This document shows positions 7,292-11,305 of a DNA stretch of 64,000 nucleotides, piece by piece. Source of the DNA: Bacteroidota bacterium (GTDB lineage: Bacteria; Bacteroidota; Ignavibacteria; Ignavibacteriales; Ignavibacteriaceae); assembly GCA_021824145.1 (NCBI GenBank), contig JAKALM010000002.1, positions 1 to 64,000 of the forward strand, read 5' to 3'. Position 1 is the first letter of the stretch, and the number at the start of each line of letters is the position of its first letter. A program made the translations under genes and the position numbers. The notes below the pieces were generated by a model. That model ran no database searches and had not been told where the DNA came from. It saw only the letters and a list, made by a program, of their open reading frames with translations.

Positions 7292-7618
7292 TTAAAATCC
7301 TGGAATATTAAAACCTGGAGGCAACATACCTTTTGTAACTTTAGACATTTCTTCTTCGGCTAATTTATTTGCAGAATGCAATGCTTTATTTACAGCGGCA
7401 ACAACCAAATCTTCTAATATTTCTTTTTCGTCTTTATTTATGACTTGCGGGTCAATAACTACAGAAACTAATTCTTTATTACCGTTTGCAGTAGCTTTTA
7501 TCATTCCACCGCCAGCTTCTTCGCTAACAGTTAAATCTCCAAGTTTGCTCTGAACCTTTTGCATCTCATCTTGTAATTTTTGAACTTGTTTCAACATTCC
7601 TTGCATTCCGCCTTTCAT
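7292..7618 (-). CDS. YbaB/EbfC family nucleoid-associated protein
   Basis: This small dimeric DNA-binding protein is typically encoded beside recR. The 108 residues comprise a Met/Gly start (MKGGMQGMLKQVQKLQDEM) forming the N-terminal helix, the beta hairpin VSEEAGGGMIKATANGNKEL, SVVIDPQVINKDEKEILEDL, a C-terminal helix and MLPPGFNIPGF. All are typical of the family. The start ATG at 7618 is preceded by GGAGG. It is the first gene of the long minus-strand run and lies divergent to the PurC-like gene; the roughly 140-base gap between them should hold both promoters, but no clear box was recognised. Confidence 0.95.
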   Translation of the reverse strand: MKGGMQGMLKQVQKLQDEMQKVQSKLGDLTVSEEAGGGMIKATANGNKELVSVVIDPQVINKDEKEILEDLVVAAVNKALHSANKLAEEEMSKVTKGMLPPGFNIPGF

Positions 7619-7760
7619 TTATCGCCTCCTGTCTATTTTATTCTACACTTTTAGTTATTTATATTTGATAAATTTTATAGTAAATATAATATAAACGATT
7701 GACTTTTTATATCTAATTTTTATAATTTCTACTACAGAATTAATAAAGGATATATCAGGG

Positions 7761-8465
7761 TTGAATAAAAACAACAACAATAATCATTTCGGAGAAGAAC
7801 TTCATAAAAAAGAATTACTTTTTGATGAAAAAGATTACTTCATTCTTGAATATTTTGATTTTATAAATTCAAATGGAGATAAAAAAGTTAAAATCAAAAA
7901 TTTGGGTGAAAAATTTGCTTTTATCAACTCATTCTTTTTTGATTATTTGAAGGAATATCATATCCCTGCCGCTTTTGTCAGAAATCATGACAAAAATTCT
8001 CTCAAATTTATTAAACATAAAAGATTTCCTTTCGGTATAAAAATTTTAAATATTATTGATAAAAGAACCGCAAAAATTTTTGGACATAAAGAAGGTGAAA
8101 TTCTCAATCTTCCCATTTTTGAATTGCATTATGGCAATGGTAAAGATTCTATGATTGCTGAAAGCCATTTAATTACGTTTGATTTATGTTCAATAGAAGA
8201 GTTAAAAATAATTAACAGAATATGTTCAAAAATTAATGCTGTACTAAAATCTTATTTTGAAAGAAGAGGCTATCTTCTTGCAGAAGCTACGTGCCACTTT
8301 GGTAAAAATGAAGATAAGATTTTTGTTGTTGACGATTTCACTCCACAAAGTTTGAAAATTATTCCTATCAATAAAACTGAAAAATCAATAGATCCTTATA
8401 AATTCTCCACTTCGTCTGAAATCAAGCACTATACAGATCACCTTTTCAATATGATGAGCGCTTAA
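7761..8465 (+). CDS. Divergent PurC (SAICAR synthetase)-like protein, likely catalytically degenerate
   Basis: Residues 16-190 align by eye with PurC from end to end: KKELLFDEK, then GDKKVKIKNLGEKFAFIN (PurC NGEKK..I.GKG..NN), FDYLKEYHIPAAFV, GHKEGEILNLPIFELHYGN, SMIAESH, and a helix matching TEEELEKI..L...VNE.L. The family's catalytic signatures are altered. The N-terminal EGKAKKxY loop is missing, the PLEVVVRNxxAGS motif reads PFGIKILNIIDKR, DFKLEFG reads EATCHFG, and DEISPDT reads DDFTPQS. ATP and CAIR binding therefore look impaired. The start is TTG at 7761. psd follows after 3 bases, and purS-purQ lie 1.4 kb downstream. It could be a regulatory pseudoenzyme or a repurposed enzyme; a true purC is expected elsewhere in the genome. 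Confidence 0.7.
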   Translation: MNKNNNNNHFGEELHKKELLFDEKDYFILEYFDFINSNGDKKVKIKNLGEKFAFINSFFFDYLKEYHIPAAFVRNHDKNSLKFIKHKRFPFGIKILNIIDKRTAKIFGHKEGEILNLPIFELHYGNGKDSMIAESHLITFDLCSIEELKIINRICSKINAVLKSYFERRGYLLAEATCHFGKNEDKIFVVDDFTPQSLKIIPINKTEKSIDPYKFSTSSEIKHYTDHLFNMMSA

Positions 8466-8468
8466 AAA

Positions 8469-9119
8469 ATGCCTACAAAATACGGATATTCTACTCTTGG
8501 AATAATATCAATAAGTGTGTTCATTATTATTGCTTTTAGTTTTTTCGTAAACAATAACTTTGAAAAATTAATTTTAATTGTTCTTCCTATTATATTTCTT
8601 TTATTTTCACTTTATTTTTTTAGAGACCCCGAACGAACCACGCCGCTAGGCGATAAAATAATAGTTTCGCCTGCAGATGGTAAAGTGCTTTTTATTAAAG
8701 ATGTTTATGATAATAAATTTATCAATGGCAAAGCAAAACAAATTTCTATTTTCATGTCTCCTTTAGATGTTCACGTAAACAGAATTCCAATTTCCGGAAA
8801 GATTGAATATCTTAAATATTTTAAAGGCAAATATATTGCAGCTTTTGATGATAAAGCTTCAGAAGAAAATGAGCGTGCCGAATTTGGAATTGAAAGTAAA
8901 TTTGGAAAAATCTTATTTACACAAGTTGCTGGATTTATAGCCAGAAGAATAGTCTATCACATTAAATTGGGTGATACGGTAAAATCTGGCGAAAGATTTG
9001 GAATGATAAAATTTGGCAGCAGGGCTGATATTGTAGTTCCAGATAATTGGCAGCCTAAAGTAAAAAAAAACGAACATGTAAAAGCTGGAGAAACTATCTT
9101 ATTTGAATTGACAAATTGA
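8469..9119 (+). CDS. psd: Phosphatidylserine decarboxylase, short (archaeal-type) proenzyme
   Basis: This enzyme makes phosphatidylethanolamine from phosphatidylserine at the inner membrane. The 216-residue form corresponds to the short PSD-A family. It has one or two N-terminal membrane helices (residues 8-50), SPADGKV at 67-73, SPLDVHVNR around 97-105 and the self-cleavage motif FGSR at 182-185, where S184 would become the pyruvoyl group. Start ATG at 8469, three bases after the PurC-like gene. The stop overlaps the possible TTG start of pssA, so decarboxylase and synthase are translationally coupled. Confidence 0.95.
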   Translation: MPTKYGYSTLGIISISVFIIIAFSFFVNNNFEKLILIVLPIIFLLFSLYFFRDPERTTPLGDKIIVSPADGKVLFIKDVYDNKFINGKAKQISIFMSPLDVHVNRIPISGKIEYLKYFKGKYIAAFDDKASEENERAEFGIESKFGKILFTQVAGFIARRIVYHIKLGDTVKSGERFGMIKFGSRADIVVPDNWQPKVKKNEHVKAGETILFELTN

Positions 9120-9121
9120 AA

Positions 9122-9841
9122 ATGAATCGTTTTAGAGTAACTCCTTCTGTTATCCCAAACCTATTTACCGCAATGAATATGTTCTGCGGATTCCTTTCAA
9201 TTATTAATGCAAGCCAAAGTAAATTTTCTTATGCCGCATGGTTAATTGTAATTGCAGCAATCTTTGATGCTCTAGACGGAATGATGGCAAGATTAACAAA
9301 CTCCAGCAGCGAACTTGGTGTTGAACTTGATTCGTTATCTGATGTCATCAGCTTTGGTGCTGCACCTGCATTTTTAATTTATGAAATACAATTAATTAAT
9401 TATAATTCACTTGGCGTAATTATTAGTTCGTCACTTATGATTGCTGGTGGATTTAGATTAGCAAGATTTAATGTTCAGCTTGTAGGTTTTAGCAAAGAAT
9501 ATTTTAAAGGACTGCCAATTCCATCTTCTGCAATAACGCTAGCAGCTTTCATTCTATCTTTTTACAAACCTGGAATTGGAATTGAAAGCCCTTATTCTTC
9601 TTTTACTATACCTTTGGTTTTAGTTTTATCAGCGTTAATGGTTAGTTCAATAAAATATGATACACTTCCAAAATTTAGCTTAAAAGGAATAAAAGAAAAA
9701 CCTTATCATTTCGGCTTTGTTATCCTTTCTTTAATTATTTTACTTTTGACCTCCGGCAAGGCATTGTTCTTTATCTTTGTTTTCATCATTCTATTTGGTA
9801 TTTTTCGTCATCTTTTTTATTTGTTAGCTAAAAAAATTTGA
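9122..9841 (+). CDS. pssA: CDP-diacylglycerol-serine O-phosphatidyltransferase
   Basis: This membrane enzyme makes phosphatidylserine from CDP-diacylglycerol and serine, the substrate for the preceding decarboxylase. The CDP-alcohol phosphotransferase signature is complete: DALDGMMAR, then eight residues, then G-x3-D-x3-D in ELGVELDSLSD. About seven hydrophobic segments are spread along 239-241 residues. A TTG at 9116 overlapping the psd stop (TTGA) and the ATG at 9122 are both possible; ATG is chosen here. The pair with psd is the usual PE synthesis unit in Bacteroidota. Confidence 0.95.
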   Translation: MNRFRVTPSVIPNLFTAMNMFCGFLSIINASQSKFSYAAWLIVIAAIFDALDGMMARLTNSSSELGVELDSLSDVISFGAAPAFLIYEIQLINYNSLGVIISSSLMIAGGFRLARFNVQLVGFSKEYFKGLPIPSSAITLAAFILSFYKPGIGIESPYSSFTIPLVLVLSALMVSSIKYDTLPKFSLKGIKEKPYHFGFVILSLIILLLTSGKALFFIFVFIILFGIFRHLFYLLAKKI

Positions 9842-9894: not shown

Positions 9895-10146
9895 TTGTTT
9901 AAAGCAAAAGTTATAATAAAGAGGCGCCCTTCTATTTTGGATCCGCAAGGTGTTGCGGTTGAAAAAGGAGCTTTTCATCTTGGACTTACTAATATTAAAG
10001 ATACAAGAATCGGAAAGTTTATTGAGTTTACTGTTGATACATCAGATAAAATTGCCGCAGAAAAGGAAGTTACAGAATATTGCAGTAAATTGTTAGCAAA
10101 TCCAATTATGGAAGATTTTGAATTCACTTTGGAAAGCATGAAATGA
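9895..10146 (+). CDS. purS: Phosphoribosylformylglycinamidine synthase subunit PurS
   Basis: This small subunit bridges PurL and PurQ in FGAM synthase, step four of purine synthesis. The 83 residues show the PurS pattern: FKAKVIIKRRPSILDPQGVAV, then LGLTNIKDTRIGKFIEFTVD, then a helix and a final strand ANPIMEDFEFTLE. The start is TTG at 9895 with AGGA eight bases upstream. The stop overlaps purQ as ATGA, a standard purSQ arrangement. purL is not in this window. Confidence 0.95.
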   Translation: MFKAKVIIKRRPSILDPQGVAVEKGAFHLGLTNIKDTRIGKFIEFTVDTSDKIAAEKEVTEYCSKLLANPIMEDFEFTLESMK

Positions 10147-10838
10147 AACCAAAGTTTGGTGTTGTTGTTTTCCCTGGTTCTAATTGCGACCACGATGCTT
10201 ATTATGCACTAAAAAAAATTATGAATGTTGACGTTAGTTTTTTATGGCATAAAGAAAATGACTTGCAAAATTCTAATGTAATAATTCTTCCTGGTGGATT
10301 TTCTTATGGCGACTACTTGCGTTGCGGTGCTATTGCTAGATTTTCTCCCATTATGAATTCTATTATTAACTTCGCCAACAATGGCGGTTATGTTGTTGGA
10401 ATTTGTAACGGTTTTCAAGTTCTTTTAGAGGCAGGATTACTGCCTGGAGTTATGATTAAAAATGAATCATTAAAATTTGTTTGCAAGGACGTTTATTTAT
10501 CTGTTGAAAATAGAAATTCAATTTTCACTTCCAGCATTACTAGAGAACGCCCAATTAAAATTCCAATTGCACATGGTGAAGGTAATTACTTTGCTGATGA
10601 TGAAACATTAAAAGAGCTATTAGATAATGATCAAATAGCTTTCAAATATTCTTCACTTGACGGCAAGACTGATGATGAATCAAACCCAAATGGTTCAACA
10701 ATGAATATTGCAGGCATAGTAAACAAAAAAGGAAATGTACTTGGATTGATGCCTCACCCAGAAAGAGCTTGCGATCCTATTCTTGGCAGATCTGACGGAA
10801 AAATGTTTTTCGATTCCATCTTAAATAATTTAAATTAA
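10143..10838 (+). CDS. purQ: Phosphoribosylformylglycinamidine synthase glutaminase subunit PurQ
   Basis: This class I glutaminase delivers ammonia to PurL for FGAM formation. Visible features are VVVFPGSNCDHDAYYAL at the N-terminus, ILPGGFSYGDYLRCGAIA, the nucleophile C88 in GICNGFQVL, and the His-Glu pair in LMPHPERA near the C-terminus. At 231 residues it is the small stand-alone form that works with PurS and PurL. It overlaps purS by four bases and is followed after 12 bases by tatA. Confidence 0.97.
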   Translation: MKPKFGVVVFPGSNCDHDAYYALKKIMNVDVSFLWHKENDLQNSNVIILPGGFSYGDYLRCGAIARFSPIMNSIINFANNGGYVVGICNGFQVLLEAGLLPGVMIKNESLKFVCKDVYLSVENRNSIFTSSITRERPIKIPIAHGEGNYFADDETLKELLDNDQIAFKYSSLDGKTDDESNPNGSTMNIAGIVNKKGNVLGLMPHPERACDPILGRSDGKMFFDSILNNLN

Positions 10839-10850
10839 AAAGGTGATCAA

Positions 10851-11048
10851 ATGTTTGACAATATGGGCATGGGCGAACTTTTAATAATATTGTTAGTAGT
10901 TTTAATTCTTTTTGGTTCAAAAAAGATTCCCGATCTTGCACAAGGACTTGGAAAAGGAATCAAAGAATTCAAAAAAGCTATGAGAGATGTTCAAGACGAT
11001 ATAAAAATTTCCGATAATGAAAAGAAAAACGATACTGAGAAGAAATAG
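10851..11048 (+). CDS. tatA: Sec-independent translocase protein TatA/TatE (copy 1)
   Basis: This membrane component of the twin-arginine translocase forms the protein-conducting assembly with TatC. The 65 residues comprise an N-terminal TM ([20 protein letters not shown]), the [20 protein letters not shown] hinge and amphipathic helix, and a charged tail (KISDNEKKNDTEKK). A GGTGA ribosome site lies before ATG at 10851. A second, very similar tatA follows 62 bases later. No tatC or tatB is adjacent. The copy with the longer spacer to its neighbour may be separately transcribed. Confidence 0.95.
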   Translation: MFDNMGMGELLIILLVVLILFGSKKIPDLAQGLGKGIKEFKKAMRDVQDDIKISDNEKKNDTEKK

Positions 11049-11110: not shown

Positions 11111-11305
11111 ATGTTAGAAGATTTAAGTTTTGGCAAATTATTAATTATTCTTCTTGTGGTAATGGTGTTATTCGGTTCTAAAAAAATTCCGGATCTCGCA
11201 CAAGGATTAGGAAAAGGAATCCGTGAATTTAAAAAAGCTTTAAAAGACGAAGAAACTTCACCGGATAACCAAGAGAAAAAAACTGAGAACAAACAAGTTT
11301 CTTAA
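11111..11305 (+). CDS. tatA: Sec-independent translocase protein TatA/TatE (copy 2)
   Basis: The 64 residues are nearly superimposable on copy 1: TM segment [38 protein letters not shown], then an acidic and lysine-rich tail ([17 protein letters not shown]). The two genes share the hinge and amphipathic helix almost residue for residue and differ at the extreme N-terminus and in the tail, which indicates a recent tandem duplication. Copy 2 may have shifted toward a TatE- or TatB-like role, but TatB length and features are absent. Confidence 0.95.

Follow-up and report, generated by a model that had tools for sequence, protein, structure and literature searches.

The locus studied here raises the question of what a gene of the SAICAR synthetase (PurC) family does directly in front of a phospholipid gene when its product has lost the residues of catalysis. 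The gene, which we call PCL (PurC-like pseudoenzyme gene), occupies 7761..8465 (+) of the window, i.e. of the whole stretch of 64,000 nucleotides from a Bacteroidota bacterium that was analysed; it starts with TTG and encodes 234 amino acids. Its preservation beside membrane-lipid genes suggests recruitment to a new, non-catalytic role.

Homology to PurC and the state of the active site

An earlier note on this DNA, made from the letters alone, had described the gene as intact and its product as following PurC along its length, and both statements hold: the open reading frame of 234 codons contains no internal stop, and PF01259 (SAICAR_synt) matches residues 22-207 of 234 with E 3.9e-21. The score of 76.3 bits exceeds the Pfam gathering score of 20, which makes the protein a member of the family, and solved PurC structures match it as well (best 3u54, E 2.9e-17). 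The PurC equivalog model gives 46.3 bits, below its cut-off of 189.9; by this score and by its core residues the protein falls outside SAICAR synthetase (EC 6.3.2.6). An AlphaFold model of the window protein and six relatives (L033-L038; seven near sequences) was poor, with a pLDDT of 37.6. Upstream of the gene, at 7699..7726 (+), a sigma-70-like promoter match (TTGACT-16-TATAAT) agrees with the consensus at 11 of 12 positions; such matches are no more numerous in the upstream region than in its shuffles. Two copies in other genomes, L095 (G014) and L097 (G020), are strongly diverged, with no SAICAR_synt match in the former and E 0.033 in the latter when judged by the Pfam cut-off, and were recognised as PCL by position and by similarity to the window protein.

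The E. coli PurC sequence served as reference for the residue comparison, and human residue numbers were carried over to E. coli positions via the shared motifs. For the contact residues of the ATP/Mg and CAIR sites we relied on PMC3261824 and PMC9376930, the latter being the source of the human numbering. Nine core substrate and Mg residues of E. coli PurC were followed (K11, E90, R94, S100, D175, K177, E179, D191 and R199), of which the window PCL keeps one, D191; the others are substituted (K11->L, E90->G, R94->L, S100->R, D175->E, K177->T, E179->H, R199->K).

These losses fall into the motifs that the earlier note had pointed out. VVRNxxAGS has indeed given way to ILNIIDKR (residues 95-102, 8043..8066 (+), replacing VRN..AGS), with R94 and S100 lost and N95 kept, and DFKLEFG to EATCHFG (residues 175-181, 8283..8303 (+)), with the loss of D175, K177 and E179. 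The change to DDFTPQS (residues 191-197, 8331..8351 (+)) from DEFSPDG, or DEISPDT as the note gave it, is likewise real, with D196 lost and R199, just after it, replaced by K, although D191 and the T/S-P remain. The EGKAKKxY loop was said to be missing; it is lost as a motif, but residues 11-15 (7791..7805 (+)) align with the G10-K11-A12 loop of PurC, which has thus been substituted (G10->E, K11->L) and not deleted. To call every catalytic signature changed was slightly too strong, given that N95, K13, the D129-equivalent, F180-G181 and, within the DEISP motif, T/S-P are retained in addition to D191.

Among the 22 canonical, 27 intermediate and 49 f1/f3 PCL rows of the residue alignment (f1 and f3 being two of the sampled families), 8-9 of the nine core residues are kept in all canonical rows, 1-6 in all intermediate rows and 0-2 in all rows of f1/f3. 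K11 and K177 are both absent from 27/27 intermediate PCL rows, from which it follows that catalysis probably failed early in the history of PCL. In f1/f3, K11 persists in 2/49 rows, K177 in 4/49, and R94 and S100 in 1/49 each. That PCL is still an active SAICAR synthetase, as the PF01259 homology might suggest when taken by itself, is virtually inconceivable with one of nine core residues left in the window protein and an equivalog score so far below the cut-off.

A different matter is whether PCL has become a new enzyme, with the PurC fold turned to another substrate and its active site rebuilt. The polar residues D100, K101 and R102, which replace AGS in 73-82% of the f1/f3 rows, and the frequent D192 and K199 could be read in this way, and the PCL of f4, f22 and f23 still has many of the ATP/CAIR residues but W in place of K177, which binds aspartate, as though a change of the amine substrate had come first. 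Nevertheless we consider a new enzyme unlikely, because E179 (ADP/Mg) and E90 (Mg) are found in 0/49 rows of f1/f3, with variable replacements, and because the strongest new constraint lies on the face of a presumed helix and not in the old pocket (see below).

The operon and the origin of the gene

In the window, psd (phosphatidylserine decarboxylase; 8469..9119 (+)) follows 3 bases after PCL, positions 8466-8468 separating the PCL stop from its ATG. It is succeeded by pssA (phosphatidylserine synthase; 9116..9841 (+); named from the earlier note and gene order) and by purS (9895..10146 (+)) and purQ (10143..10838 (+)), both named from that note. The start of purS lies about 1.43 kb downstream of PCL, and the spacings given earlier, 3 bases to psd and 1.4 kb to purS, are therefore correct. 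The left neighbour in the conserved block is a divergent gene (7292..7618 (-)) that we presume to be ybaB-like; in other genomes, too, the opposite side of PCL usually carries a divergent ybaB and recR. Two tandem tatA-like ORFs (10851-11048 and 11111-11305) are found after purQ, and relatives have one to three tandem copies.

The arrangement is constant. PCL immediately precedes psd, in the same orientation, in 39/39 near-group PCL genomes (38 loci and the window), and a check of the neighbours across relatives, as the earlier note had proposed, found psd immediately after PCL in 77/77 PCL loci, the window being included by its coordinates. With psd starts taken from the longest ORF, PCL overlaps psd by up to 11 bases or ends up to 20 bases before it in 76/77 loci; in the remaining one the distance is 98 bases. 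At one locus (L167 in G148) the psd after PCL is split into two ORFs (116 and 149 aa), possibly owing to a frameshift or an assembly error. At another (L091 in G023) the psd block is without purS and purQ, and the PurL match of this genome, which scores below the PurL-II cut-off and falls in an open frame of 1005 aa, suggests that PurSQL was replaced by a large PurL.

Canonical short PurC occupies the same position in other families. In f8, f12 and f15, which belong to the same class as the window, it is encoded directly before psd, the gap being -4 to 23 bp at the 12 of 13 loci where it was measured (all but L193), and PF01259 found no other PurC in the eight genomes searched from these families. 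Outside the class, all four f32 loci (one cut by a contig end) show the block purC-psd-pssA-purS-purQ...tatA-gatA with a short PurC that keeps the core residues and is among the 22 canonical rows. A partly degraded gene precedes psd in f4, f10, f13, f14, f18, f20, f22, f23 and f24. PCL was found in 11 sampled families altogether, mostly with a long PurC elsewhere in the genome; of the 24 genomes of partly degraded families searched with PF01259, four were without a long PurC, namely G178, G382 and G159, which are 67-84% complete, and G262, which is 92% complete and has a fragment of a long PurC only. A partial long PurC was found in G370.

A tree of 82 proteins, for which 45 of the 77 PCL rows were used (f1 was thinned by hand to 13, and G398 was left out because of a residue in its copy that could not be resolved), places all 45 PCL rows in one clade (100/99) inside the short-type PurC, and separates the short type with PCL from the long type (100/100). 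Origin of PCL as a local duplicate was considered and rejected, since an intact short PurC occupies the same operon position in f8, f12, f15 and f32. The shared position and the place of the PCL clade within the short type lead us to infer that PCL is the displaced ancestral purC, and no fresh duplicate of the PurC of the genome. They also affect the earlier argument from the neighbours: that PCL is maintained stands on other grounds (see below), but psd, pssA, purS and purQ already adjoined the active enzyme, so that their vicinity is weaker evidence of maintenance than it looks.

The earlier note had asked for a second, normal purC in the genome, and there is one: a long-type PurC of 298 aa (G000:C35:158271-159011) with all nine core residues. 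Among 15 aligned long PurCs from nine families, 14 keep all nine, and the remaining one has T at S100. The long-type PurC is thus the probable active replacement for the displaced short purC. One genome has, beside an intact long-type purC, a second one with a single in-frame TGA (L050, G012:C51:14872-15609); this assembly is 4% contaminated.

The number of displacements is less easily read. In a tree of Psd and PssA (93 rows; 27 loci were left out by hand as thinned close relatives, and four for want of both genes) the PCL families are not united, with eight changes and the canonical f12 among them, and the group without PCL needs at least six changes. A single displacement is hard to reconcile with this result, unless the tree is wrong or purC was regained; repeated displacement with convergence, or a regain of purC in f12, would accommodate it. 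We nevertheless prefer a single origin as the reading of these sequences, because it is supported by the PCL gene tree and by the shared R153 and R168.

Selection, losses and the purine pathway

Estimates of dN/dS for PCL were obtained with a simple Nei-Gojobori script and are rough, several dS values being above 1: they range from 0.043 to 0.087 in six of ten pairs, reach 0.162 in one nearly identical pair, and are saturated in three. Those of psd, pssA, purQ, recR and gatA are of the same order. PCL is under purifying selection. In the near group, i.e. the own genome and its relatives, the variant is conserved in 39/59 genomes (f1 34/37, f3 5/5, f2 0/17). With its catalytic residues lost, a second and complete PurC in the genome, purifying selection and this distribution, PCL deserves the description as a maintained PurC-like pseudoenzyme that it had been given: it has the homology of an enzyme family without the catalytic residues, and it is conserved under selection. 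A PurC-type gene was found with PF01259 in 58/59 near-group genomes, mostly as one long PurC beside PCL. Across the class, the PCL profile matches 141/391 genomes, a count in which canonical short PurCs and some weak matches of the long type are included.

The gene has also been lost cleanly. In 17/17 f2 genomes, and in G018, ybaB and the psd-pssA block are present without PCL between them, and psd occurs without PCL in these and in 14 other PCL-less genomes inspected. Such clean losses, the strong divergence of the copies in certain f1 genera and the closeness of the PCL stop to the psd start would be expected if PCL had no function as a protein and were a decaying remnant, or served only as a leader for translational coupling to psd. 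We regard this as most improbable: dN/dS is 0.04-0.09 in most usable pairs, R168 and R169 are fixed in 76/76 rows across 11 families, and the near-group matches listed have no internal stop, although one TAA each lies within the span matched in G020 and in G249 when the profile match is longer.

Genus g23 separates PCL from the purine pathway. In its two genomes (G034, locus L075, and G398, locus L210; 96 and 93% complete) PCL is the sole PF01259 match, neither PurE nor PurL was found, and purS and purQ are absent from the operon; PurH is still present. Between the two, dN/dS is 0.075 for PCL compared with 0.154 for psd. Chance loss from the drafts is possible for any one gene, but unlikely for the same three in both genomes. 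Since PCL is selected where PurC, PurE and PurL were not found, it does not serve de novo purine synthesis. The pathway itself has probably been lost in g23, whose genomes measure 3.1-3.4 Mb.

The same genomes bear on two further explanations. PCL might be a non-catalytic, prozyme-like partner subunit of the long PurC or of another purine enzyme, which would agree with the co-occurrence of the long PurC in most PCL genomes; purifying selection in g23, and the presence of the long PurC without PCL in 17/17 f2 genomes, make this very improbable. Alternatively, PCL might be a ligand sensor, still able to bind a nucleotide or an intermediate of purine synthesis though not to convert it, through which psd/pssA or purS/purQ are tuned. 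The operon holds genes of both pathways, and basic residues occur at old contacts in f1/f3 (R199->K in 40/49, R215->K in 31/49). Given the near-complete loss of R94, S100 and K11 in the same families and the selection on PCL in g23, we find a sensor quite unlikely.

The newly fixed face of a presumed helix and the proposed role

The strongest new constraint is found in residues 145-169 (8193..8267 (+)), which we take to form a helix on the strength of the family fold and a weak prediction (pLDDT 38), and which carry a newly fixed face (R153, K157, A160, S164, E167 and R168; also R169). R168 is present in 76/76 PCL rows and in 0/22 canonical ones, and R169 in 76/76 against 18/22; position 153 is R in 69/76 and K in 7/76 PCL rows, and K in 4/22 and R in 0/22 canonical rows. 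The five largest drops in entropy among 224 positions, PCL compared with the enzymes, are at 153, 160, 168, 164 and 157, followed in gained constraint by Tyr66 and Pro69. If the segment is helical, these five positions lie at angles of 340-60 degrees, within an arc of 80 degrees. The enzymes vary at all five (entropy 2.0-2.9 bits), which is what an exposed surface would lead one to expect. Seven of the ten positions with the highest gained constraint fall in residues 153-169 (p = 4e-7, for a segment chosen after inspection); that four of the new residues gather on a single face is of modest significance (p = 0.038) and concerns residues picked once the data had been seen. Family-balanced subsampling, in which the five positions were among the top eight in 200/200 subsamples, is a fairer statement of the gained constraint than these p values. 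R168 is already fixed in the intermediate PCL rows, from which K11 and K177 are gone, so that the loss of catalysis and the gain of the new face would both have come early.

A pocket that is lost while a face with the small A160 and S164 between the basic R153, K157 and R168 becomes fixed most likely means that this face binds something. Of the two fates proposed earlier, a regulator or an enzyme with a new substrate, the gain of the helix face and the loss of the ATP/Mg and CAIR residues favour binding or regulation. We envisage that SAICAR synthesis passed to a long-type PurC, and that the old short purC kept its place in front of psd-pssA and, its catalysis lost, was retained for a non-catalytic protein that would bind a partner through the newly fixed face (R153, K157, A160, S164, R168). 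The partner would most plausibly be Psd, PssA or the membrane where both act, and PCL, produced along with Psd, would serve as adaptor or regulator. These are the best candidates because PCL remains with psd-pssA where purS-purQ have gone (g23 and G023). However, adjacency to psd was inherited from the active enzyme and is hence weak evidence for a role in lipid synthesis; psd persists without PCL in many genomes, and Psd therefore does not need PCL in general. When PCL-bearing and PCL-less genomes were compared over the columns of Psd, PssA, PurS and PurQ, none separated them clearly (best difference about 0.5, uncorrected for phylogeny).

On balance we lean, if only slightly, to the view that PCL is a displaced ancestral short PurC that now acts without catalysis in docking or regulation, its most plausible link being to the adjacent genes of phosphatidylethanolamine synthesis. 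The bolder proposal, that a class-wide family of dead PurC with a gained docking face is a dedicated accessory protein of phosphatidylethanolamine synthesis, of which different lineages preserve stages from the active type to the nearly unrecognisable, we put forward only tentatively.

PCL offers a bacterial example of an enzyme that was made redundant by a replacement gene and was kept rather than lost. The active type, the half-eroded, the fully eroded and the lost stage are found at the same chromosomal position in different families, and the sequences reveal some of the order in which the events took place. There is also a warning for annotation: PCL passes the Pfam threshold and may receive the label purC, and G034 is an example of a genome to which purine synthesis would then be wrongly ascribed.

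Among known proteins, PCL resembles the short bacterial PurC (PF01259; E. coli PurC, 3u54, 3nua) over residues 22-207, with N95, N159 and F180-G181 kept, and this enzyme is its positional ortholog in the operons of f8, f12, f15 and f32; in contrast to it, the window PCL has only 1/9 core residues, and R153, S164, E167 and R168 are new. The long-type SAICAR synthetase (about 300 aa) belongs to the same Pfam family, but forms the separate clade described above, has the core residues and lies at a different locus. The AdoMetDC prozyme (PMC5201418) and the deoxyhypusine synthase paralog (PMC3663545) are reported to be, like PCL, inactive paralogs kept by selection; they activate their own active paralog, whereas PCL persists where no PurC was found. 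In some archaea, a second, divergent or truncated purC-like gene occurs beside a normal one, as is the case for PCL, but this is reported for a few species, and the portion of PMC3261824 consulted describes no conserved dead family. The open-access literature searched yielded no description of a conserved PurC-derived pseudoenzyme. The PurC enzyme, and pseudoenzymes as a kind, are thus already known, whereas a conserved family of PurC-derived pseudoenzymes appears to be new.
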